Below, piece after piece: positions 24,086-57,700 of a stretch of 64,000 nt of DNA (position 1 is its first letter; each line of letters starts with the position of its first letter). A program made the translations under genes and the position numbers. Under the pieces are notes generated by a model, which saw only the letters and a program-made list of their open reading frames with translations, had not been told where the DNA came from and made no database searches. Origin of the DNA: Pneumocystis sp. 'macacae' (lineage: Eukaryota > Ascomycota > Pneumocystomycetes > Pneumocystales > Pneumocystaceae); assembly GCA_018127085.1 (NCBI GenBank), contig CM030733.1:124001-188000 (forward strand). The letters run 5' to 3'.

Positions 24086-24580
24086 TCTACTCTCTTGACT
24101 CCCCACAAATCTCTTGTTTAAAAACACTGTCTTTTCCTGTTTCTGTTGTTGCTGCTACTGTTCCGTGTAAACAGCCCAACGTATCCCGAATACCTGTGAT
24201 AGATATTCACTTTGCACTGTCCTAATTGTATGCGTAAAACCCGAGTATATGCTGTGTATATGCACAAAAACCGCTTCTATGCGTTTTTTGCCCTGCTGCA
24301 CCCGCCAAATCGCTGTATATATGCGCCTCTTTGAGCTTCAGCTGTTCTCGTGTGTGCCGATTGCATTTATTGCATTTATCCGGCCTTCGATGTCTCCTCG
24401 ATGTGCCCATATCGTTCAGCTACACTGTTGTATCTTCCGACCTCCGTTTTTCCGTGTATATGCATGGTCTATGCACTGTGTGTCCCTTATATGCATTCTT
24501 TTCCTTGCTATATGCATCCTGTATCTTCCTCCTGTGTCCATTGTGCTTTTTTTCGCTTCTAACCGTGCACCCCGTGTAAC
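24086..24580. other. Divergent region at the left shoulder of the GC island
   Basis: Between the dynein light chain (-) and COQ2 (+), base composition changes. From about 24235 the + strand becomes strongly pyrimidine-rich and less AT-rich. The sequence holds TATATGCG-type motifs (TATATGCTGTGTATATGCAC, TATATATGCGCC, ATATGCATGG). Open frames on both strands here look like by-products of composition, not genes. Confidence 0.55.
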
Positions 24581-25973
24581 ATGCGCCAAATCTCTTGCTG
24601 CCACCGGCTTGCGCTTCTGCCCCATAGTATACAGCAAAAGATACTGCCTGTGCTTTTCCTTAAGTCCTCTTTAACTACCCCGTTCAGGGCTTCTTTCCGG
24701 CCTGTCTATTCACCACTCAACCTATCTTCTTTCCATTTATCTTCTCTTGTTTACTATACACGGCTTGCTCGTTGGGATCGCCTCATTGGCGCATGGCTCT
24801 TATATTTGCCGGCAACATGGTCGATAGGAATGGCTGCATATGCTGAGAGTGTGTCTCCTTATGAGACGATACGGATGCTTGTCTTGTTTGGAGCAGGAGC
24901 AGTGTTGATGCGTGGTGCCGGATGCACAGTAAACGACTGGTGCGACCGGAAAATTGATGCACGGGTGGCACGCACGGCACAGCGGCCACTTGCTGCCGGC
25001 ATGCTTAGTACCAGGGATGCAGGTGTTTTTCTTGTGGCACAGCTTGCTGCTGCTGCACTGGTTCTTGCACAGCTCAACTATAGCTGGTGAGTCGGTGGAA
25101 CGCGCATATACCGCGCATATACCGCGCATACATTGCGCATATATGGTGTTTTATGCATACATGCGGCGTCTTGTCATCTATAGTCAGCGCATATATGCAC
25201 AGCATTCGCACGTGTGTGCACCGCGTCTGTATGCGTATGCTGCTTCTGCGTGTATATGCGTAGACCCCTGTTCTGCATGTTGACCTGCCAGCTGGTTGCT
25301 AGGGGCAACGTCCCTCCTGCCGGTCGCAATCTACCCGTTTATGAAGCGCATCACCTGGTATCCACAGGTTGTCCTCGGTAGTGTGCACTTTATACAGCAA
25401 CCTCCTGACCGCACAGGCTTTACATTCAATTGGGGCATCCTAATGGGCTGGCCTGCCCTTGTGGGCTGGGACAAGGTCGTCTGGGCAGCGTGTCTGCCGT
25501 TGTATCTCTCGGGTGTTCTCTGGACAATTGTCTACGACACGGTCTATGCTCATCAGGTAAGGCGCGTCGCTGCCGTTCGACACGGACACACCGCTGTCCT
25601 CGGTATCCGTTTCACCGGACACACTGTCACTGTTGTGTCACGTGCTGATCACGTGCAGGACAAGCTCGACGACGCCTCGTCTGCAGTATACTCGATGGCG
25701 CTGCTGCTCGGGAAACACACAAAGCCGTGTCTCTCGGTGCTCTCTGCTGCACAGGTGGGTGCACTTGCTCTGGCGGGGTACATGAATGGGCAGACCGCCC
25801 TGTTCTATGTGCTCAGCTGCGGAACAAGCGTCTGCTACGCGCTCTGGATGCTCCGTGCCGTCGACCTCGACCAGCCCCAGAGCTGCTGGCGCTGGTTCCT
25901 GCGCAGCAAATATCCCGGCCTCCTCGTTGCCATCGGCCCCCTTCTCGACTGGACACTCCGTCTCTCGGCATAG
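24581..25973 (+). CDS. coq2: 4-hydroxybenzoate polyprenyltransferase, ubiquinone biosynthesis
   Basis: COQ2 attaches the polyprenyl tail to 4-hydroxybenzoate in the mitochondrial inner membrane. The N-terminal about 55 residues (basic, Ser/Leu-rich, no acids) look like a mitochondrial presequence. The UbiA motifs are complete: GAGCTVNDWCDRKIDARVAR (first Asp-rich motif) and YDTVYAHQ joined across an intron at about 25557-25660 to DKLDDASSAVYSMALLLGK (second Asp-rich motif). Hydrophobic helices fill the remainder. A 205-bp intron (25087-25291) splits LNYS and WLLGATSLLP and is full of CGCGCATATA units. The stop is 52 bp before the RPS26 start. Base composition is GC-rich, unlike genes outside the island. 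Confidence 0.94.
25087..25291 (+). repeat. COQ2 intron with tandem CGCGCATATAC units
   Basis: The intron begins GTGAGT and ends CTGCCAG. At about 25098-25150 it has three to four tandem copies of CGCGCATATAC, degenerating to ATTGCGCATATATGG, followed by scattered GCGCATATATGCAC and TGTATATGCG. The motif is shared with the enlarged introns at 19158-19725 and 20301-20676. Confidence 0.7.
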
Positions 25974-26025
25974 TCACGTGCCCCGGATGAATAGCCGGCC
26001 CGATTTTTTCGGCAGCGACAAACAC

Positions 26026-26532
26026 ATGGTGAGTCCTGTGGCGCGGGCGCCAGATACGCCCACTCTGCCTCCAGCACTGACTCCCCCAGACATTCAAGCG
26101 CAGAAACAACGGGCGCAACAAGCACGGCCGTGGACATACAAAGCCTGTGCGCTGCTCCAACTGTGCACGCTGTGTCCCCAAGGACAAGGCAATCAAGCGC
26201 TTCACCGTCCGTAAGTCTCCACCCCCCTCCCCCCACTCCTCACCCCCCAGGGAACATCGTCGAGTCTGCCGCCATCCGCGACATCTCCGACGCCAGCGTC
26301 TACCAGGAGTATGCCCTTCCCAAGCTCTACATCAAGCTCCACTACTGTGTCTCCTGCGCCATCCACAGCCACATCGTCCGTGTCCGCTCCCGTGAGGGCC
26401 GCCGCATCCGTATCCTGCCGCTGCGCCAGCGCTACTCCAAGGTTCTCTCTCCCTGTCGGCTGCTCACTGCTGACTCTCCAGGACGGACGCAAACTCAATC
26501 CCGTGAGTGCCGCAAAGGCTCTCCTTATATAG
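26026..26532 (+). CDS. rps26: Ribosomal protein eS26 (RPS26)
   Basis: This is a small-subunit protein at the mRNA exit channel. Exon 1 is just the ATG (26026-26028), followed directly by GTGAGT. Intron 1 (26029-26089) ends CCCCCAG. Exon 2 reads [20 protein letters not shown] and [19 protein letters not shown], with the first zinc CX2C. After a C-rich intron (about 26212-26250) come [32 protein letters not shown] (second CX2C) and [15 protein letters not shown]. The last exon is [16 protein letters not shown]. Length and motif order fit eS26. The ATG-only first exon is supported because no other upstream ATG gives the conserved [13 protein letters not shown]-terminus. Confidence 0.95.
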
Positions 26533-27010
26533 CGTCCAACACGCCCAACACACCGTCTGTCTCCGCTGTCCCAGCGCCCAATACTTTCCCCAACACCGCT
26601 GGTCGCTGCCCCTTCTGCCCTCTTTCCCGCCCTAACCCTGCCCTATCCCCATCCCACCCGATCCAAGCACACCCATTGCAGCCCATCGTACTTCCCCCAT
26701 ATCCCTTCCCATCCCCTATTCTTCCCTTCCGTCCCCTAACCCTAACACAGCCCCGCCCTGTCTTCTTGACCTGCCCTAACCCTCTTCCCTGGCAACGTGA
26801 CCTAACCCTAACCGCCATCCGGACCCTGACCTGCTTGTTATGACCCTAACCATGCCCTACTTCTGTCCAACCCTAACCCTATCCTCATACGCACACGCCA
26901 ACCCTAGCCCCGCCCTAGCCCTACTGTGTGTGCGGACACCCGGGCACCCACGGGGGCAACGCCTAATGCGCCCTTCGCAACCGCGACCGCTGCGCCCCTC
27001 CCGCGCAGCA
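26533..27010. repeat. C-rich spacer with clustered telomere-like CCCTAA units
   Basis: Between RPS26 and SmD1 the + strand is extremely C-rich (hand count 26641-26700: 31 C, 5 G). It contains CCCTAA words at about 26630-26638, 26734-26746, 26774-26783, 26800-26813, 26843-26851 and 26869-26880, several in tandem pairs (CCCTAACCCTAA). The fungal telomere unit TTAGGG is the complement. These could be an interstitial telomeric remnant, binding sites for a Tbf1-type factor in the SmD1 promoter, or a chance result of C-rich composition. No protein-coding gene is present. Confidence 0.7.
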
Positions 27011-27439
27011 ATGAAGCTCGTAAGGTGTGTTGCCGCCCACGCACCGCCGCTGACCACACAGGTTCCTCATGAAGCTGACGAACGAGACGGTCTCTGTCGA
27101 GCTCAAGAACGGTATGTCTGTGTCTGCCGCCCCGCTGACGCCCCAGGAACCATCGTCTGTGGCACCATCACCTCCGTCGACATGCTCATGAACACCCACA
27201 TCCGCAACGCAAAAATGACCGTCCATGCCCGCTCCCCCGTCAGCCTCGAGACCCTCAGCATCCGCGGCAGCAACATCCGCTACTTCATCCTCCCCGACTC
27301 CCTTCCCCTCGACACACTGCTTATTGACGACGCCCCTAAGCCCAAGCAGAAGAAGAAGGATGCGCTTGTTGCCCGTGGCCGTGGCCGCGGCCGCGGGCGT
27401 GGCGGCCCGCGCAGGGCGCGCGCTGCACGCGCGTTCTAG
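27011..27439 (+). CDS. smd1: Core spliceosomal protein Sm D1
   Basis: SmD1 is part of the heptameric Sm ring on U1, U2, U4 and U5 snRNAs. Exon 1 is 14 bp (MKLVR, 27011-27024), with an intron at 27025-27061. Exon 2 continues [17 protein letters not shown], and after a second intron (about 27112-27147) [20 protein letters not shown], the Sm1 motif. [20 protein letters not shown] is the Sm2 motif. The C-terminus is the RG-rich tail ([19 protein letters not shown]) that is arginine-methylated and bound by SMN-type factors. It lies 67 bp before the CLASP gene on the same strand. Confidence 0.95.
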
Positions 27440-27506
27440 CTGTATGTAGTTATCTATGTTTATGCGCGGGAGGCGCAGCATGTGCATATCTGTCCGCGCC
27501 GCCCGA

Positions 27507-30500
27507 TGCTCGACATGTCTGCAAAAGATGCTTTTGCGCTCCACGAGGCACTGCGGACTGCCCCGCACGACCGCAAGCTCGATGTGCTTGTGCAGCTGCG
27601 CCGCTTTGTCAAGCGCAACGACGTGGCGGTGCGTCTCCGCCTCCTGTCTGTGCTGATCCGTGCAGCTCGACGCCGTCCCAGCACTCGTCGATGCCCTGCG
27701 CACAGGGCTTGCTGCAGGCAGCCCGGCACTGAGTGCCGAGTCTGTTGTCTGTCTTGCACACCTTGTCAAGCGCGTTGCACTCCAGGACGCTGCTCGCCTG
27801 CGCACCGCTGCGCCTGTGCTCGGCCCGCTGCTTGTTGAGCGCCTGGGCGACCTCCGCGACCGGCCGCGCGACGCCGCACACAGCGCGCTCGCTGTGCTGT
27901 GGCGCTCTGCGCCCTCCGACATCGAGCGCTGCATCCGCGACCACGGCTTTGCTGCCCGCAGCTCGCACGTCCGCGAACAGGCCGTCCGCTGGGCCCAGCG
28001 CATGCATGCCCAGGCAGCACTCCCCCTGCGCTGCTGCGCCGGCATCGTCCGCCTCCTCGAGGACGCAAACGACGCCGTCCGCGACGCTGCAAAGGCCGCT
28101 GTCCTCGATCTCTACAGGTGCGTCTCCGTCCAGGGCCCGCTGACCCTCCAGAGACGCGCCCCCCCACGCACGCGCCGAGCTGCGCCGCGAACTGGCCGAC
28201 CACCGCGTCCGCAAAAAGACCGCTGCCTACATCACCGACCTCCTCGACGACTCCGCCTCCCGCAGCGACGACTGCTCCCACGACGACCCGCCCCGCAGAC
28301 TCTGCACCGAGACCACTGTCTGTCCCGGCGCGCCTGCTGTCTCTCCCTGCCTCGACCACATGGATCCCGCATGGGTGCGTCTGCTGCCGCCCTGTCCTGC
28401 TGACAGCACAGGTCCACTCGGCCAGAGAGCTCGAGACCGAGATCCACGACATCGCCGCCGCCTTTGAGGGCAGAGAAACCGACACCAACTGGGTCGTCCG
28501 CGAGCGGCACATTGCCCGCCTGCGCGCACTGCTGCGCGGCAATGCCTGCCGCGACCACGCAGGCGTTGTCGCCTGGGCGCTGCGGCTGCTCACCGACGGC
28601 ATTGTCAGGGCGGTAGGTGCTCTGTGCAGCAGCAGTGCTGACGGCAGATCGGGTCGCTGCGGACAACACTGAGTCTTGCTGGGCTGCAGCTTGTCAAGGA
28701 CGCAGCACTTGTTGGGGCCGGACTGGACCAGCCAGCAGAGGCGCTGCTTGGAAGCCTTGTCCGGGCAAGCGGGCAGACGAAGAAGATTGTTGCTCGGGCA
28801 GCACAGGTGGTGGGCGGAGTGCTGGTGGGGAGTGTGTCGTACCAGGCGAGGATTGTGCAGCAGGTGGTGGGGGCAGCACAGGACAAGAATGCATCGACGA
28901 GACAGTGTGCAGCGGGGTGGCTGCGGGTGCTGCTTGAGACACACAGAGACGCAAAGGCACAGATAGAGGCGTCTGGCGGGACAGAGGCAGTGGAGCGGGC
29001 GATACGGAGCGGGGTGTCGGATGCACACAGCGGGGTCCGGACGGAGATGCGGGAGGTGCTGCGGTGTTTCCGGGAGCTGTGGCCAGAGAGGGCACAGAGG
29101 CAGGTGGAGGGGGTGTGGGGCGTGCTGACGGGGGCAGTCTGGTCGAGGGGCTTGATGCGGTTGCGCGGCGGCAGCTGGAGAGGGCGCTGCAGGGCCTGAG
29201 CATGGGGGGGCAGACGGGGCAGACGGGACAGGCAGGGAGAGTGGGGAAGGGGACGGGTGTGGCGAGGCGGGAAGAGGGGATGCAGGGGGGGCTGCAGTCG
29301 GGGGCGGTGCGGCAGGGCGTTGGGCGGCGGGGGGAGGGTGGGGAGCAGAGGGGGGGGCGGGGGGGGCGGGGGTCGCCGCGGAAGCTGACGGTGGGGGAGC
29401 AGCTTGTGCATGGGGACTGGCGGGTGCGTGTGGAGGGCATTGTGACGGTGGCGTGTCTGCTGGCAAAGAAGGAGCCGCCGGGGTATGAGGGGCGGCGGGT
29501 GCCGAGTCTGCCGGGGAACGAGGTTCTGGGGGGGGCGCTGCAGAAGCTGCTGAATGATCCGCAGGAGGAGGTGGTGAACCACCTGATGGCGCCGGAGGTA
29601 ATTGTGGAGGTGGCGAAGGTGGTGCCGCTTGAGCAGATTGTGCCGAGGATTGTGCTGCTGAGTGAGAGAGAGGAGAGTGGGCGGGGACACGACATAGTGG
29701 GGGCGTGTCTGCCGGCAGTGAAGAAGCTGGTTAGTGAGGGGGAGGGGGCAGAGGTGCTGGTGAGGGTTTTGACGGCGATGGGGCAGTCGGGGGTGGTGCC
29801 GAAGAAGCTTTCAGCAGCGGTGTTTACGACGTCGGAGAAGCGGAAGATCATGCACGGGGTTCTTGAGTGGATGGGGGAGCTGGTGGAGCAGCATGTTGAG
29901 AGCAGGGGGAGGGGGGAGGAGGGGAATGGGTACTTCAACGAGGTGTCGAATCTGAAGTTCTGTGTGAACCGGCTGGTGCCTATGATCAGCAGCATGCGGC
30001 CAGGGTCGGAGAACTATGGGCCGTTGGCGGGGCTGCTCAAGTCGCTGCGGGGGGTGAACGAGGAGGTCTTCGACAAGGTTCTGCAGACGTTTGAAAAGGG
30101 GACGGTGAATGCACTGAAGAATGCGTGGGGGATAGTTGTTGAGGAGGAAGTGCAGGAGGAGGAGAAGGTGGCGTGTATTGAGGAGGTCCTTGGAAGTGTG
30201 CCGGTGGTTGGGTGTGCGAGGGCAGAGGGGGGTGAGCAGTATTCGCTGTCGCCGGCGGGGTCGCAGTCTGCGAGGTATTCAGATGTGTTTGTGGACCCGT
30301 TTGAGGAGAACTCGGCAGGACAGATGAATTTTGAGGACATGACGATGATCCAGATACCGAAGCTCCAGACGCGTGTTCTGAACAGCAAGGTCTGCAGGGA
30401 CATGCCCGTTTCTGGTCCGCCGGGCTCTGTCGGAGTGGATTCTGCGTTGGCTGCCCAGGACGCAGCCAGGGCGGGCGATCTGGGGGCTTTGGATGACAAG

Positions 30501-31510
30501 GCAGGCCAGACGGAGCAGGGGTCTCCTGTGCGCCCTTCCCAAGTCCCATTGGCATCGGACCCGGGGAAGCAGGAAAGCCGGGATGCGTCAATGAAGGACG
30601 AAGACTTCTCTAAAGACTCGGGTCTGTGGTTCCGCAAATATATGAAGAAGATTCCGACTACTCCACTCCCGAGAAACATAGATGATAGCATTAGGCTGCT
30701 AAGCAGTCTCGTTGAAAGGCTTGAAAACCATGATATGGATTCCTATGCCTTTAAGAAACTAATATGTATTTCGAAGGAGCATTCTCTTGAGTCGGATGCG
30801 GAAAACCATGATGATGCCGCTGATAGTTCTAAAAAGGGGGATATCTGGGTTTCAGGGAGCTTATTCAGTTCTTTGCTAAATGCTTTGCTTGATTTTATGA
30901 CGAAAGATTCTGTTTTGGAATTGAAGATTCAGGGACTTTTGCTTTTAAAGTATCTTTTTGATTATCAAAAGCTATATTTTAATAACCATGTATTGAATGT
31001 GTTTGATTATCTTCTCAAGCTTCGTTCAGAGGACTCTAATAATAGCCGTATTATATGTGCAGTAGAAGAGATAATATTTGAGATAGTGTCCTATTTCGAA
31101 CCACTCAAAGGGATTTCTGTATTTTTGTCGTATTTGGAGCCGTACATTTCTGATGATGACGACGAATCAAAGAAATATCTTTTGAAACAGCCAAATATTG
31201 TTATATGTTTGTCATCTTTAGCGATATTTATTAAGAAGCTGGGGAAACCAGAATTAGACCAATATCTCCAAAGAATCCCGTCGCTGGTTATTAAGGTGTG
31301 TTAGGTGCTTTTTCTTTTCCGATTCATTGGTTTTAGGCAATAAATGACAGAAACCCGGAGATTCGAAAAGAGTGCGTAACTGTATGTATATCAATAAATA
31401 GTGTTATCAAGAATTCCATGGAAATATTTGATTTGTTACAAGGGCTTACACACGGTCAGCAAAATTTATTGGTTTATTATTTTACAAAAAGCGGTGGAAA
31501 AGATATGTAA
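27507..31510 (+). CDS. CLASP-family microtubule-stabilising protein (Peg1/Stu1-like)
   Basis: CLASP proteins bind microtubules through TOG domains and promote rescue at the spindle midzone and kinetochores. The start is MLDMSAKDAF at 27507 (or the second Met at 27516). TOG-like HEAT repeats are seen in ALSAESVVCLAHLVKRVAL, PLLVERLGDLRDRPRDAAHS and DAAKAAVLDLYRDAPPHARA. A CLASP_N-type domain runs from about 28420 (WVVRERHIARLRALLRG, LQLVKDAALVGAGLDQPAEA, VRTEMREVLRCFRELWPERA). An RG-rich linker (29190-29390), a middle segment and a C-terminal HEAT region to the stop at 31508-31510 follow. About six introns of 35-45 bp occur, one with a GC donor at 29100. Composition changes within the gene: C-rich, then G-rich, then AT-rich after about 30650. 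Confidence 0.85.
29190..29395 (+). repeat. G-rich low-complexity tract in CLASP linker, G-quadruplex candidate
   Basis: This stretch encodes a Gly/Arg/Gln-rich linker (GGQTGQTGQAGRVGKGTG, RRGEGGEQRGGRGGRG). At about 29331-29372 there are at least five consecutive runs of four or more G on the + strand. A hand count of 29341-29400 gives 40 G and 10 C. Confidence 0.75.
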
Positions 31511-51434: not shown

Positions 51435-52561
51435 ATGGATTTTTTAAAAATATCTATTACTTTTTTAATAGGAAGTAAGTTTATTTGGTTGTGCAAATTG
51501 ATTTATTTTGCAGTTATAACTTTTACTATTATTGTTATTTATTGTCTACAAGCTCGTTTGATTTATCTATCATGGGTTCCTTTGAATTCTCGTAGCTGGG
51601 TAGGGAGACCGGATTCTTATCAGATTCCGTATGAAGATCTTACACTTTCTACTCCCGACGGTGTCTCTCTTCATGCATATCTTTCTATTTATGACAATTC
51701 ACATTGTACTTTCATTTATTTTCATGCTAATGCGGGCAATATGGTTTTTTTTTTTGTAATTATTTTTAGTCTGATTGTTAATAAAGGGACATCGTCTTCC
51801 TATAGTTAAACGTCTTTATTATGATCTTCAATGCAATGTTTTGATATTTTCTTATCGAGGGTTTTTTCTTTAGATTTTGATCTATCTTATTTATGATTTT
51901 AGATATGGATACAGTACTGGAACTCCTTCTGAAAATGGTATTATAATTGATTCTATGACTGTTCTTGATTATGTTTCCCGACATCCAATACTTTCAAAAA
52001 CTCCAATTGTTGCATATGGTCAATCTCTTGGTGGTGCAGCTGCCATACAAAGTGTTTTTACTAGTCAGGAGAAAGTTATATTATATATAGATATGTTCAA
52101 TAATTAATTTTTATATAGTATTCGGCACTTATTCTTGAAAATACATTTCTTTCTATACCTAAGCTTATGTTAGAGTAATATGCTTCTTTTATTTTTTTCG
52201 TTTATTTAATTTAACAGCACAATGCCTTATATGGCTTTATTCAGAGGGCTTTGTCATCAACGTTGGCCATCACAAGATAGGATTTCTTTTATTAAAAGCA
52301 TTCCTATTCTTTTTTTGTCTGGCCAAAAAGATGAAGTTGTACCTTTTCATCATATGCATACTCTTTATTGTCTTTCTTCAGCAAAAAAGGTTTTTAAAGT
52401 TTTTCAAAATGGAAAACATAATGATACGGTTTTTTTTCTATTTTATGTATTTTTTCTTATTTTTTCAGGTTATTCAGCCTGGTTATTTTGAAACAATTGC
52501 ACAGTTTTTAAGAGAAAATGGTTTATCGCATGTTGTTTCTTTAAACGATAATTTCCATTAA
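51435..52561 (+). CDS. bem46: Bem46/ABHD13-type alpha/beta hydrolase
   Basis: This is a membrane-anchored serine hydrolase of unknown substrate. The N-terminus has a transmembrane helix (LIYFAVITFTIIVIYCLQAR) and then the family opening LIYLSWVPLNSRSW. FIYFHANAGNMGHRLPI spans an intron at about 51741-51784 and carries the oxyanion-hole HANAGN motif. FSYRGYGYSTGTPSENGI is followed by the nucleophile elbow AYGQSLGGAAAI. Later exons give LENTFLSIPKLM, PILFLSGQKDEVVPFHHM (Asp) and FQNGKHNDT (His). The protein ends LNDNFH. Introns lie near 51860-51900, 52080-52125 and 52425-52470. Confidence 0.9.
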
Positions 52562-52756
52562 ATATATTTTTATGTACATTCTGCATAATTTTTGTTTTTG
52601 TATAGCATTATTTGATTTTTTCTATATCTATTCATTTATTTATAAAAATTACGCACTTTTTTTTAACTTTTTAAATATTATTTTTTTTTTTATTTTTATT
52701 TTTTTTTGCTATCTTTTTGTTAAAGATAATTGTCTCGCATCCGTTAATAATACGAA

Positions 52757-54580
52757 ATGTCTGAAGATATTCAAAATACATTGAGTTTGCATAAGCAAAT
52801 CGATGAAAAAGTAGCAAGTCATTCTGGCAAGAAGAATGTTTTTAAAAGATATTTTTCTACGAATAATTCTGATGATATACCATTAGCAAGCTTCTTGTAT
52901 GTGATATCTAGATAAATTCATGTTTTGACAAAATTTAGATCATCGACAATGAATTTACTTAATACGATTATTAGTAATTTCTCTTTTTTTTTCTGTTTTT
53001 ATTACTAATGTTTGATAGGTGCTGGTGTATTGGGTAAGGTTATATTTTTGTTAAAGTTAGCAACTTATATTTTGATTAGCCATGCCTTATGCCATGTCTT
53101 TAACGGGGGTTGTTGCAGGTGTTTTTATTATTGTTCTTTCTGGTTTTACAAATGCTTTGGGTCTTTATTTCCTTTCATGTTCTGCTGCAAAATTAGAGCG
53201 TGGAAAGGCCTCGTTTAATAGTCTAGCGGTTATGACGTTTCCTTCACTTGCCGTTTTAGTATGTATTTGGATATTTGTTGATAGTTTCTGACTTTCCAGT
53301 TTGATTTCGCAATTGGAATTCAATGTTTTGGTGTTTGTGTGAGTTATTTGATCTTGATTGGTGATGTTATGCCGCAAGTTGTGGAAACGTTCGGTGGCAA
53401 TTTATTAAAGACGTCATATCTGCTTAGTCGACATTTATGGATTAGTGTTTTTATGTATTTTTTTCTAATCTTGATATTTGTAACTAAAATGATAGATTCA
53501 TTGTGATGCCATTTACATTTTTCCGTCGATTGGATTCTCTTCATTATATATCTACTGTCGCCATGGTTTCTATTGGTTATATGGTCATAATTATTATTGT
53601 ATATTTTTTTCGGCAAAATATTTGGAATACAGATATTGAGGCTTATTTTTTTAAAGGAAAAGGAGTTAGTGCATTTTTTTCTTCTATATCAGTTTTTACA
53701 TTTGCTTTTACTTGTCAACAAAATGTAAGATTTTAAGATTTTTGATGTTCATAATTTTTTTAGATATTTACTGTCGTTAATGAAATTCGCGATAATAGTC
53801 ATAAGAGACTTTTACTGCTTTCTACTATTTCCATTGGAATATCTGGTTTTATATATCTTATTGTAGCTGTTTTAGGTTATCTTTCTTTCGGTATTTTTTG
53901 TAGATTTTGGGTTTATAGTACTTATTTTATTTTAGGTGTTAATGTCCCTGGAAATATAATTTTAGCATGTTTTTTTCTTAAATTCTTAGTTTTTTTTTAT
54001 AACCATAATTAGACAAGTATTCTATTCCTGTTACTATTGCAAGAATTGCAATTGTCGTTTTAATTACATTTTCTTATCCTCTTCAAGTTTATCCATCTCG
54101 TGTGAGTCTTGATAAAGTTTTATTGTGGCGTCCCAGATCTCGTGAAATTAACGATAAATCGTCAGCTTTTAGGTTTTTTATTCTCTCATATAAAGTGTTA
54201 ACATTTTTAGTGTTTTGCGATTTAATATTCTTACTTGTTTTATTCTTGTGTTTTCGTATATTTTAGCCATGACCATAAGTTCTTTTGAAAAAGTTTTAGC
54301 GTATATTGGATCTGTGGGCTCGACTATAATTGCCTTTATTCTTCCTGGGTTATTTTATGCTAAGTTAGCATATAAACCTGATGTTCTATATAATAAAAAC
54401 ACTCAGTGTGATCAAGAAACTCAGCATAATCTGCGCTTTTTATTAAATAAAAGATTTACTAGAGCTTGGTATTTAAAAAAGGCTGCATTATTATTGTTTA
54501 TTTATGGAGTTTTTATCATGATAATATGTTTGATATCGAATATAATTCATAATGTTCAGGATTCGAAAAAAAATATATAG
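52757..54580 (+). CDS. Vacuolar amino-acid transporter (AVT/SLC38 type)
   Basis: This is an AAAP-family transporter that probably moves amino acids across the vacuolar membrane. The soluble N-terminus (MSEDIQNTLSLHKQIDEKVA) ends in SSTMNLLNTIIG, which continues after an intron as AGVLAMPYAMSLTGVVAGVF. About ten hydrophobic helices follow, including FDFAIGIQCFGVCVSYLILI, WISVFM with FIVMPFTFFRRLDSLHYIST, FTVVNEIRDNSHKRLLLLST and VLGYLSFG. The last exon (54215-54580) has LAMTISSFEKVLAYIGSVGS and a final helix before DSKKNI. The Asn-Thr-Ile-Ile-Gly-Ala-Gly start and FxxxNE segment place it in the Avt5/6/7 group. About ten introns are inferred. Confidence 0.87.
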
Positions 54581-54741
54581 TAATTAGTTTTATTATTTTC
54601 AATATAATTATTTTTATAGAAATATGTTATACAGCTAAGAATTTAGAATAAATTATTGCGCTATTAATTACTGTGCACAATTGTTAATTATATAATATTG
54701 TATTTATTTTAAAGGATTTTTATATATGATAATCACTGGTA

Positions 54742-57700
54742 TTAAACCATTTGGTATGTACGTTTTCGAATCCCTGATTTAAATTCGTTTTCACTACCAT
54801 CTAGAGTATTTCTTGATACTTTTGTTTCTATATTAGATATTTTTTCGTTTGAATTGGATTGTGTTTCAGCATTTAAGTTACTAGATGTTTTTTCTTTTGT
54901 AACTTCATTTTTTGGTTCTTCAGATCCTGAATGCTTAAAATTTGAAACACAAACTACATTTGTGTCAATTTCTGAAAGAGGTATTTTCCGTAATTGTTTA
55001 AGTATTTCCTCATGAGGTTTTGTAAGTTTCCATGATGCCGGATATTCATAACTACATTTTTTTGGAGTTTTGCCTGTTAAAATGTCTTTTTTTATCGGTG
55101 TTGATAAGATTTTATCATGGGTAGTTATTATTTGAGAAACAATAGAATCTTTATGAAGATTATTTTTTGATTTTTGATTTTGAGTTAAATCGATAATAAA
55201 ATGAGAATGCATATCGATATTTTCCTTGATACTATTTACTTCTGTTTTTAATTTTTGATAAGAACTTTTAATATAATTAGATATAGAGTCATTATCTTTG
55301 ATATATGTATTATAATGAAGAGAATTTTGTGATTGTGCTAAACCAAATATCAATGTATGAGATTTTTTGTTTAAATTATTACCTTTGGTGAGAGAGTCAC
55401 TGAAGACTTGTATTTGGGTATTCGTTTCTTGTACTTGAGCATCAATTAATTGGAGAATTTCTGAATAGATTGTTTGAGTATTAGTTTGAATAGTGGTTCC
55501 TTTATTATCGACATTCTAAATTTATTAGTATTGATCTCGTTTGCATCTTAAGAATACTTTTGCTGTTGATATGACATTATTTTTAATGTCATCTTTTGAG
55601 CTTATTAATTTTTTAATAAAAAGATTCTCTTTTGCAGCCCAAATATCGATTTTTCCGGAAAAACTAGAAACCAATTCATCGATTTTATTAGAAATGTTGT
55701 TTATATTTGATTGGGAATAATTAATCTGAGCAGTGTATCGCTTATCGTGGTCTTCAAAAAGATTATTAATAAGACAAGATATATGAGTTATCAATTTTTC
55801 TTTTTCTTTTGAACTTTTTTCTTGTTCTTGAGATAACAATTGTTCAAGGTGATTTGATGCATGAGATATTTCATCTTTGATATATTGGGATGATGTCAAA
55901 AATTCTAATTTTAAATTCTGGATTTCTGTAACTTGTGTTGTAATATGTTTTTGAGTATCATCAAAGAGAGATTTTATATCGTGTCCTAATTGATTATATG
56001 AATTATGAATCTGTTTTTGTCAATAATAAAATTTAGTACATATGTATATATAACCTGCTGCTGAAATTTTATTATTCCTTCAAAAATTTCTTCTGAAATT
56101 TTTTTTGTTGTTTTATTAAGATTTTTAAATCCGTCGTTAAGTCTTGATTTGATATTTTCTTTGAATATTTTGATTTCTTCTAAAGAATTATTTGTTTCCC
56201 TCTTTCCTAAATCTATTCGATTGGAGATTTCGATGTGTTTGTTTTCAAAACTTGAAAGTTGTTGATCTATAAATTGAAAATTATCATTGATATGTTTTAT
56301 TTCTTTAGTAATAAATTCTGCAATTTTATTTTCTAGTTCATTGTAATATTCTAGTTGAGATAAATGATATTTAGTCATATCATTGTTAAGATTTTCTGTA
56401 AATGCAGTTATATGAGATTTTATTTCATTCCATAATATAATATTTGAAGATTCTATTTCTGTCTTACGTTCTAATAAAAAATAAGTTTTATTTGTATATT
56501 CTATTGATTACTAACCAATTTTTTCATGTAAACTATTAATATCGAGAATTGTCTTTTTAAGTGTGGAATGAAGTTCATTTGCTATAATGTCAAGTTCCCA
56601 TTCTGTAGTCTGATGAGCTTTTCGGATAATAGTTTCTTCGTTTAGATATTGTTTAGTATCGATAAGATCAAGTTCAGTTTTTTTTAGTATATTTTCTGTA
56701 TCTTCTAATGTTTTCTAACTTTTGTTAGATATGATAATAAAAATAAAATATTTACTGAAGTTTTTTCTAGATCTTTTTTAGTTTGTATGAAAAGCTTCAT
56801 ATTCTGTTCGAATTGTTCTCTGATTGATTTAAGTGATAACTCTAAAGCATCTATTTTGCGTTGCTGTTCTTCTACTAAAGTTTTATTGGAATGATTTTCT
56901 CCTGTGAGTTCTTTGTATGAGCTTTCTGAGAGATAAATGCCTGTTTTTTGACGACATGCCTGTAAAATATTAAAAACAAATTATTACTTTCTGACAAACT
57001 ACATTTAAATCATTTTTCAATCGTTCTATATCTTGAATATATTCCTTAATAAGTGTTTTTTTTGTCATCATTTGATTGATTTGAGGTTTGTTTTTAATGC
57101 TTTTTGCTCTATTTGCATATTCTAAAGTACTTATCGTTTCTTCTAAATTATTTTTTTCTGGACTTATAGTTGCAATAATACATGTTTTAGTTTTTCCACC
57201 TAATGAATCTTGCAAAAGACGAGTAAGTTTTGATTCACTGAGGCATTTAGATTAATAAAAATAAATTTGATAATATTACCGATACGGAATGTGCTGCGAT
57301 TTATCAACCAAGGCGTTTATTACTCTTCCTAATGTTAAAAGACTTTGGTTGATCATCCCTGCTTCTCGTGCACGTTTGTTTTCTGCACCTGATCGTCCAA
57401 TATTTTCTGAACCAGCAAGATCTACTAAATTAAGTTTCCCTAGTTTCAAAAGATCTTCTCCAACTTCTGCTGCTTCTTTAATATGGACAGTAATTGTAAA
57501 AATTGAATGTGAACGACTTGAAAGATCATTACATTTTGTTGCAGCAACTTGGCGCTTATGACTTCCCATTTCAAGAAGTTTTATTCCATCCCAAGAATTT
57601 GCAATAGGAATATCTTCCATTCCGTTGATTACCACACCTTTTTTCATTGTATCTTCAAAAATTTTTACCTTTTTATCCTCAATAGATAATAAATCACGAA

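Follow-up and report, generated by a model that had tools for sequence, protein, structure and literature searches.

A strand-composition switch inside the CLASP gene

Why should one strand of a chromosome turn abruptly from C-rich to G-rich in the middle of a gene? This question is raised by a stretch of 64,000 nucleotides (the window) on contig C14 of Pneumocystis macacae, a lung fungus of monkeys. GC content reaches 0.62 in an island within the window, as against 0.311 at 1-23,000 and 0.269 at 32,001-64,000. The features of the island are as follows.

24290..30635, no strand: skewed GC island (GC 0.62; maximum-scoring GC segment)
24290..28557, no strand: C-rich left half (GC skew about -0.24 over the 2 kb preceding the switch; fourfold sites)
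28551..28711, best 28,598, no strand: switch point (change-point likelihood)
28558..30635, no strand: G-rich right half (GC skew about +0.41; fourfold sites)
24701..25973, + strand: COQ2-type prenyltransferase gene of the UbiA family, upstream limit putative (Pfam UbiA, relatives, frames)
26090..26490, + strand: main exons of a gene which we take to be RPS26-like (frames)
26560..26940, + strand: spacer whose C-rich strand has numerous CCCTAA-like words (sequence)
27011..27437, + strand: LSM-domain gene, presumably SmD1-like (Pfam LSM, frames)
27506..31507, + strand: CLASP gene, spanning the switch (Pfam CLASP_N, match to PMAC_001127, exon map)

The initial annotation had counted C and G by hand along the + strand, and a recount reproduced its figures exactly, both on the left (C:G of 31:5 at 26641-26700, 29:10 at 28201-28260 and 21:17 at 28441-28500) and on the right (17:25 at 28561-28620, 11:27 at 28861-28920 and 10:40 at 29341-29400). 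Its statement that all four genes of the island run rightward was borne out by their reading frames, with Pfam hits for all but the RPS26-like gene. A minimum of cumulative skew, which it had placed at about 28.5 kb, was found within the island at 28,558, but the switch itself lies nearer 28.6 kb: the maximum-likelihood change point of G versus C is at 28,598 (support 28,551-28,711, log-likelihood gain 155), and analysis of a narrower stretch gave a support of 28,551-28,616. The exon map puts the switch at the short intron separating CLASP exons 4 and 5. It divides the island unequally, into a weaker left half of 4.3 kb and a right half of 2.1 kb. The contrast in skew (±2 kb) was 0.65 at 28,500, against a top value of 0.38 (SD 0.13) in the rest of the window, outside 23.5-33.5 kb.

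Fourfold sites of the CLASP gene show the annotated switch as well, passing from 73% C to 73% G. Left of the switch the frequencies are C 0.73 and G 0.11 in exon 3 and C 0.68 and G 0.25 in exon 4; right of it they are C 0.07 and G 0.59 in exon 5 and C 0.07 and G 0.73 in exon 6, after which the last exon has no skew at these sites. The ratio of C to G at third positions was 167:43 over six left-hand exon segments and 15:247 over exon 5 plus the greater part of exon 6 of CLASP (Fisher p ~1e-66, a nominal value, as neighboring sites are not independent). Codon choice flips accordingly for glycine (GGC 14 and GGG 2 on the left, GGC 6 and GGG 59 on the right) and for arginine (CGC 43 and CGG 2, then CGC 0 and CGG 27). 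The COQ2b, RPS26b and SmD1b exons remain C-rich, with skews of -0.25, -0.78 and -0.74.

PMAC_001127 of Pneumocystis 'macacae' matches the CLASP frame with 99% identity. Within the G-rich part, at about 29,100-29,200, the frame that matches relatives shifts without a recognized intron, and the database CLASP model takes residues ~413-470 in a different frame; this change of frame is probably an assembly or annotation problem.

Both flanks of the window (1-23,000 and 32,001-64,000) carry a long-range excess of G and T on the + strand. Their GC skew has the same sign on the left (+0.133) and on the right (+0.151), and their AT skew is -0.06 and -0.10, respectively. This skew, of G with T, is chemically different from that of the island, which concerns C and G only. 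A strong + strand T excess (AT skew -0.20 to -0.34) occupies 52,001-57,000, and a leftward kinesin-type frame (54,742-55,515) lies inside this zone. No structural RNA or tRNA was found within the window; ARAGORN was used with the bacterial code.

The island belongs to a genome-wide class

The P. macacae genome (8.27 Mb in 19 contigs) was scanned for loci through a telomere-like word and through strand-neutral G/C runs, contig ends being excluded by eye. Allowing up to 2 mismatches, the word occurred at 251 places and the same word read backwards at 10. The scan yielded at least 45 candidate position clusters away from contig ends, two of which are mere poly-C runs. Sequence was obtained and read for 29 of these clusters, namely 28 loci (L009-L036) and the window. 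As splitting an island at its cumulative-skew minimum presets the sign of the two halves, the midpoint of the island as defined by GC content alone served as the unbiased split.

With this split, skew was higher in the right half than in the left in 29 of 29 islands, a genome-wide class of uniform polarity that the initial annotation had missed. The two halves had opposite signs in 28 of the 29, the exception being L009 (-0.14 and -0.05). Among 46 overlapping control windows from the flanks of our window, 22 had the same polarity. All five loci known solely from G/C runs showed it. We conclude that the islands are a real, strong and genome-wide feature of P. macacae.

Averaged over 25 loci, GC content is 0.28-0.33 at 3.5-4.5 kb on each side, ~0.45 near 2.1 kb and 0.63 at the center, so that a background of ~0.30 doubles and is regained within ~3 kb. 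In the left half C climbs to 0.42 whilst G does not exceed 0.20 until roughly 750 bases from the center, with the mirror image on the right; A and T thus both yield almost wholly to C on the left, and G hardly rises. Support intervals for the switch were 20-627 bases wide (22 loci), and the two ways of placing it disagreed by 530 bases in L013 and 1,092 in L029. The jump in skew over ±1 kb had a mean of 0.61 (range 0.32-0.94) in the 28 loci scored, L017 being left out as below the GC limit. The C-to-G contrast exceeded the G-to-C contrast in 26 of these 28, and did not in L025 and L029. AT skew was nearly nil (left -0.043, right +0.003; 25 loci), although it was higher on the right in 19 of 25 loci (p 0.02), the same direction as GC skew. 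Because AT skew is almost absent, the asymmetry concerns C and G specifically, and a general purine bias does not explain it.

The islands vary in strength and width. L009, L017 and L023 are weak, and wider islands (e.g., L024, L025, L030) have a low-skew middle, as though several centers overlapped. At ~1-2,000 of L031 and ~4,500-7,000 of L029, a few kb away from strong islands, there are weak ones with the same polarity, perhaps old or minor centers. Candidate islands (at least 45 clusters) are spaced tens to hundreds of kb apart, and at least five lie on contig C14. A search for a motif shared by the centers gave a best z of 6.4, against 8.8 and 7.0 at control offsets (22 of 25 loci, three short or weak ones having been dropped). 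Among the open-license papers listed by literature searches, none, judged by title, described skewed GC islands of Pneumocystis. Reversal of skew is known in kind, from recombination hotspots and Candida centromeres; what is new here is its extent, number and setting.

Skew follows the side of the switch

The initial annotation had argued that transcription or coding strand could not cause the reversal, and genes of both orientations at the islands supported this. From 40 chosen open frames at 20 loci, 18 Pfam-anchored stretches were counted, the window being excluded. Fourfold sites of left-hand + genes had C 0.78 and G 0.04 (n = 167), whereas the coding strand of left-hand - genes had G 0.52 and C 0.22 (n = 250). 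To the right of the switch, + genes had G 0.61 and C 0.16 (n = 1022) and the single - stretch had C 0.62 and G 0.19 (n = 21). Skew therefore tracks the side of the switch and not the strand of the gene. There were two exceptions to this rule: the left part of the radical-SAM gene of L025 has next to no skew (+0.02), and in L029 the second MetRS frame, on the right side, has -0.26. Near the latter another island seems to begin. Skew of the transcriptional or R-loop (CpG-island) type was rejected, as left-hand + genes are C-rich and left-hand - genes G-rich on the coding strand.

Ten of 11 right-hand genes, with the window counted, are on the + strand, so genes pointing outward may be over-represented. 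Such an excess does not create the skew; it may hint that the centers began near promoters.

A skew bound to the gene itself would look the same within CLASP alone. In many unicellular fungi the coding strand is C-rich toward the 5' end and G-rich toward the 3' end, at fourfold sites too, according to the available part of the source (PMC3315797), and one such gene in either orientation gives a + strand with C on the left and G on the right. The COQ2b, RPS26b and SmD1b exons, however, do not turn at their own 3' ends, and the last CLASP exon is unskewed. In other islands left-hand + genes are C-rich throughout and right-hand + genes G-rich throughout. Island skew thus extends over several genes and ignores gene ends, and it comes with a doubling of GC content that is foreign to the fungal pattern. 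We rejected this explanation, which is highly improbable.

Protein change across the switch

In P. macacae most of the CLASP protein, to about residue 950, is GC-type in its amino-acid make-up. In P. jirovecii and P. oryctolagi the make-up is GC-type near the N-terminus only (over approximately the first 200 alignment columns in P. jirovecii; the P. oryctolagi start looks mispredicted), and the CLASPs of P. carinii, P. wakefieldiae and one further relative are without it. The frame at 28,938-31,304 is 50-62% identical to these other Pneumocystis CLASPs (P. jirovecii, P. oryctolagi, P. carinii, P. wakefieldiae and one further). This kinship, together with last exons that are AT-rich and slow-evolving, makes contamination or transfer unlikely as an origin of the island.

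Conserved columns were defined as those with at least three other rows present and unanimous, and residues 413-479 of P0001, where the reading is unreliable, were excluded from these and the following counts. P. macacae CLASP departs from the consensus at 44 of 120 conserved columns left of the switch, at 16 of 57 and 70 of 273 to its right, and at just 7 of 145 beyond the island. Exchange between the two acidic residues is polar. Compared with P. jirovecii, Asp replaces Glu 9 to 0 on the left and Glu replaces Asp 12 to 0 on the right; comparison with P. carinii gave corresponding counts of 9 to 1 and 11 to 2, and that with P. wakefieldiae 9 to 2 and 10 to 1.

The CLASP of P. jirovecii departs at 29 of 78 conserved columns in residues 41-190, and at 15 of 109 and 43 of 434 in the later parts, an excess which suggests that a GC-rich stretch probably lies there too. 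Asp/Glu counts between P. jirovecii and P. carinii in this GC-type N-terminal part were 4 and 3, with no polarity. Comparison of COQ2 within Pneumocystis (P. macacae, P. murina, P. carinii and one further row) added little. The LSD1-like gene of L019 has a frame that matches PMAC_002240 with 100% identity across 68% of the frame. This gene looks GC-type in P. macacae and weakly so in a partial P. jirovecii row, and is not GC-type in P. canis, P. wakefieldiae or two further rows.

Proposed break and repair at the island centers

The initial annotation had offered two causes for the reversal, a fixed bidirectional replication start or a fixed double-strand-break site with strand-biased repair on each side. 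The islands are indeed best described by a fixed point flanked by a strand-biased process to either side, and a break site appears to fit it better than an origin; in this respect its interpretation was partly supported. Our preferred explanation, to which we would give an even chance, is that the islands are fixed double-strand-break sites whose repair is both GC-biased and strand-biased.

On both sides of the switch the C-enriched strand is the one with its 3' end toward the center (the + strand on the left, the - strand on the right), and the gain in GC and the skew affect not only fourfold sites but also amino acids that are conserved elsewhere. Resection at a break exposes a 3'-ended strand, which is used for invasion. 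Each island center would be a recurrent break site, probably meiotic, used over evolutionary time. Once the break had been resected, the 3'-ended strand would invade the homolog, so that to either side of the break the strand polarity of the heteroduplex would be fixed. If mismatch repair of the heteroduplex were biased, placing C into the 3'-ended strand and G into its partner, repeated conversion would raise GC along the length of the conversion tract and leave opposite skew on the two sides. Deamination of cytosine in the overhang would give the opposite polarity (less C), and is thus not the driver. A conversion bias for C in the invading strand, a step that we infer, fits the sign of the skew, its kilobase reach and the overridden constraint. 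The changes at conserved CLASP columns and the polar Asp/Glu swaps are as biased conversion overriding constraint would give, and the mean decay of GC from the center (25 loci) has a reach like that of conversion tracts. A Spo11-type gene is present in the genome (TP6A_N, with one exon over the cut-off at E 4e-13 and another weaker).

Meiotic hotspots offer a parallel. The nucleotide skew of mouse hotspots, reportedly described by Smagulova in 2011, is said to switch polarity at the center, as in the islands, although the rise in GC and the skew of the islands are far larger than those known for mammals. A further difference is that no central motif was found among the 22 loci searched. Hotspots with GC-biased conversion share the gain in GC around the center, as reported for the dog in the available part of the source (PMC3861134).

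Several observations count against break and repair. A central motif shared by the loci does not stand out. The center in the window lies in a gene body and not in a promoter, where most yeast hotspots are found. On the left both A and T are replaced by C, which is more than repair of G:T mismatches on one strand alone would give. AT skew is near-absent, and stretches of L025 and L029 fall off the side rule. Furthermore, the closest published pattern is that of Candida albicans centromeres.

Candida centromeres and alternative explanations

According to the available parts of two sources (PMC2924309; PMC3459929), the centromeres of C. albicans and C. dubliniensis have the same negative-to-positive GC skew on the + strand. 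The C. albicans jump is 74% over 3 kb (PMC3459929, in part), as compared with the island mean of 0.61, and in both cases GC is raised and background is regained in ~3 kb. The two differ in that Candida has one jump per chromosome, at the centromere, whereas at least five islands share one contig and lie within and across genes. Candida centromeres also have an opposite AT skew of lower size, where the islands have almost none.

This likeness underlies an explanation in which the islands are linked to kinetochores. Each chromosome would have several GC islands occupied by the outer kinetochore protein Mis12, and whatever process acts at C. albicans centromeres, e.g., fork stalling and homologous repair beneath kinetochore chromatin, would produce the skew; this could be one phenomenon with break sites. 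In the same species, Mis12 ChIP-seq gave 4-6 peaks per chromosome that tended to fall in GC-rich regions, for a reason not clear to its authors (PMC10327204, from the parts available), much as the islands are several to a contig. The authors, however, call these peaks possible artefacts, and accept as centromere one peak per chromosome, flanked by H3K9me2; in P. murina and P. carinii, centromeric GC lies on average 3.9% below that of the genome (same source and extent). The available portion of this centromere preprint makes no mention of skew. The single regional centromere of the species is itself a misfit with five or more islands on C14, and the nearly nil AT skew of the islands is unlike that of Candida, which opposes the GC skew. 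Because of the Candida pattern, the GC-rich Mis12 peaks and the five islands on the contig, we leave a small but real probability to a kinetochore link, while regarding it as rather unlikely. A joint form is quite unlikely, in which P. macacae chromosomes carry several Candida-centromere-like sites where the outer kinetochore protein, breakage, strand-asymmetric conversion and skew are one phenomenon; if it were true, present, spare or former centromeres could be read from sequence alone.

Constitutive bidirectional origins, at whose centers leading and lagging strands swap, would also produce a minimum of cumulative skew and a polarity uniform across islands, and the Candida pattern was read as replication by Koren (2010) in the part of that paper available (PMC2924309). 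The reach of only ~3 kb is hard to reconcile with candidate islands lying tens to hundreds of kb apart. Moreover, the long flanks of the window show no change of sign, and they have G with T, whereas the right side of the islands has G excess without T excess. At S. cerevisiae origins the jump is 9% and decays over ~20 kb (Marsolier-Kergoat, 2012; PMC3459929, in part), far below the island mean, and GC content in the islands doubles. The same paper rejects a replication cause for the Candida jump on the same grounds. Given flanks of one sign and a jump far above the replication type, the fixed replication start of the initial annotation is a poor fit, and we consider a plain origin improbable. 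Strand-biased mutation in place of conversion is the remaining alternative; new C on one strand would come from damage near a fixed site or from error-prone synthesis there. It would account for the left side, where A and T turn almost entirely into C with little gain in G, a change larger than simple G:T repair predicts. Changes at otherwise invariant amino acids nonetheless fit a drive to fixation at least as well, and a C-inserting polymerase on the strand resynthesized after resection should leave the opposite polarity. We regard strand-biased mutation as unlikely.

A sharp-centered, two-sided island is a record of the place and strand of an event over evolutionary time. Here there are dozens of copies, lying in genes, with a bias so strong that it has exchanged Asp and Glu one way on the left and the other way on the right. 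The islands make it testable why heteroduplex repair would favor one strand. They may explain the unexplained GC-rich Mis12 peaks of P. macacae, and they bear on the dispute about skew at Candida centromeres. Fast protein change in island genes need not signal selection.

Telomere-like words in the islands

On the C-rich strand of 25 islands, the six rotations of CCCTAA were the six commonest of the 60 arrangements (144-205 occurrences each; median over all 60, 46). Telomere-like words numbered 961 on the C strand and 105 on the other; of 50 halves, 41 had more on the C strand, 5 had fewer there and 4 had equal numbers. The left half of the island in the window had 22 of them, all on the C strand. 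As loci were picked by the telomere-like word or by G/C runs, this enrichment is partly built in; and as most were picked by the word, and loci known only from G/C runs hold few, the word is not universal to the islands. Such words are a known by-product of break repair, for which they would speak here, and can be used by telomere-binding proteins.

A GC-only word of 18 bases was seen near several contig ends, pointing toward the end (C3:307, C4:553,170, C8:480,288, C13:6,510, C16:10,594 and C16:338,687), and also at C10:472,865 and C15:374,632. It is a subtelomeric repeat, separate from the islands.
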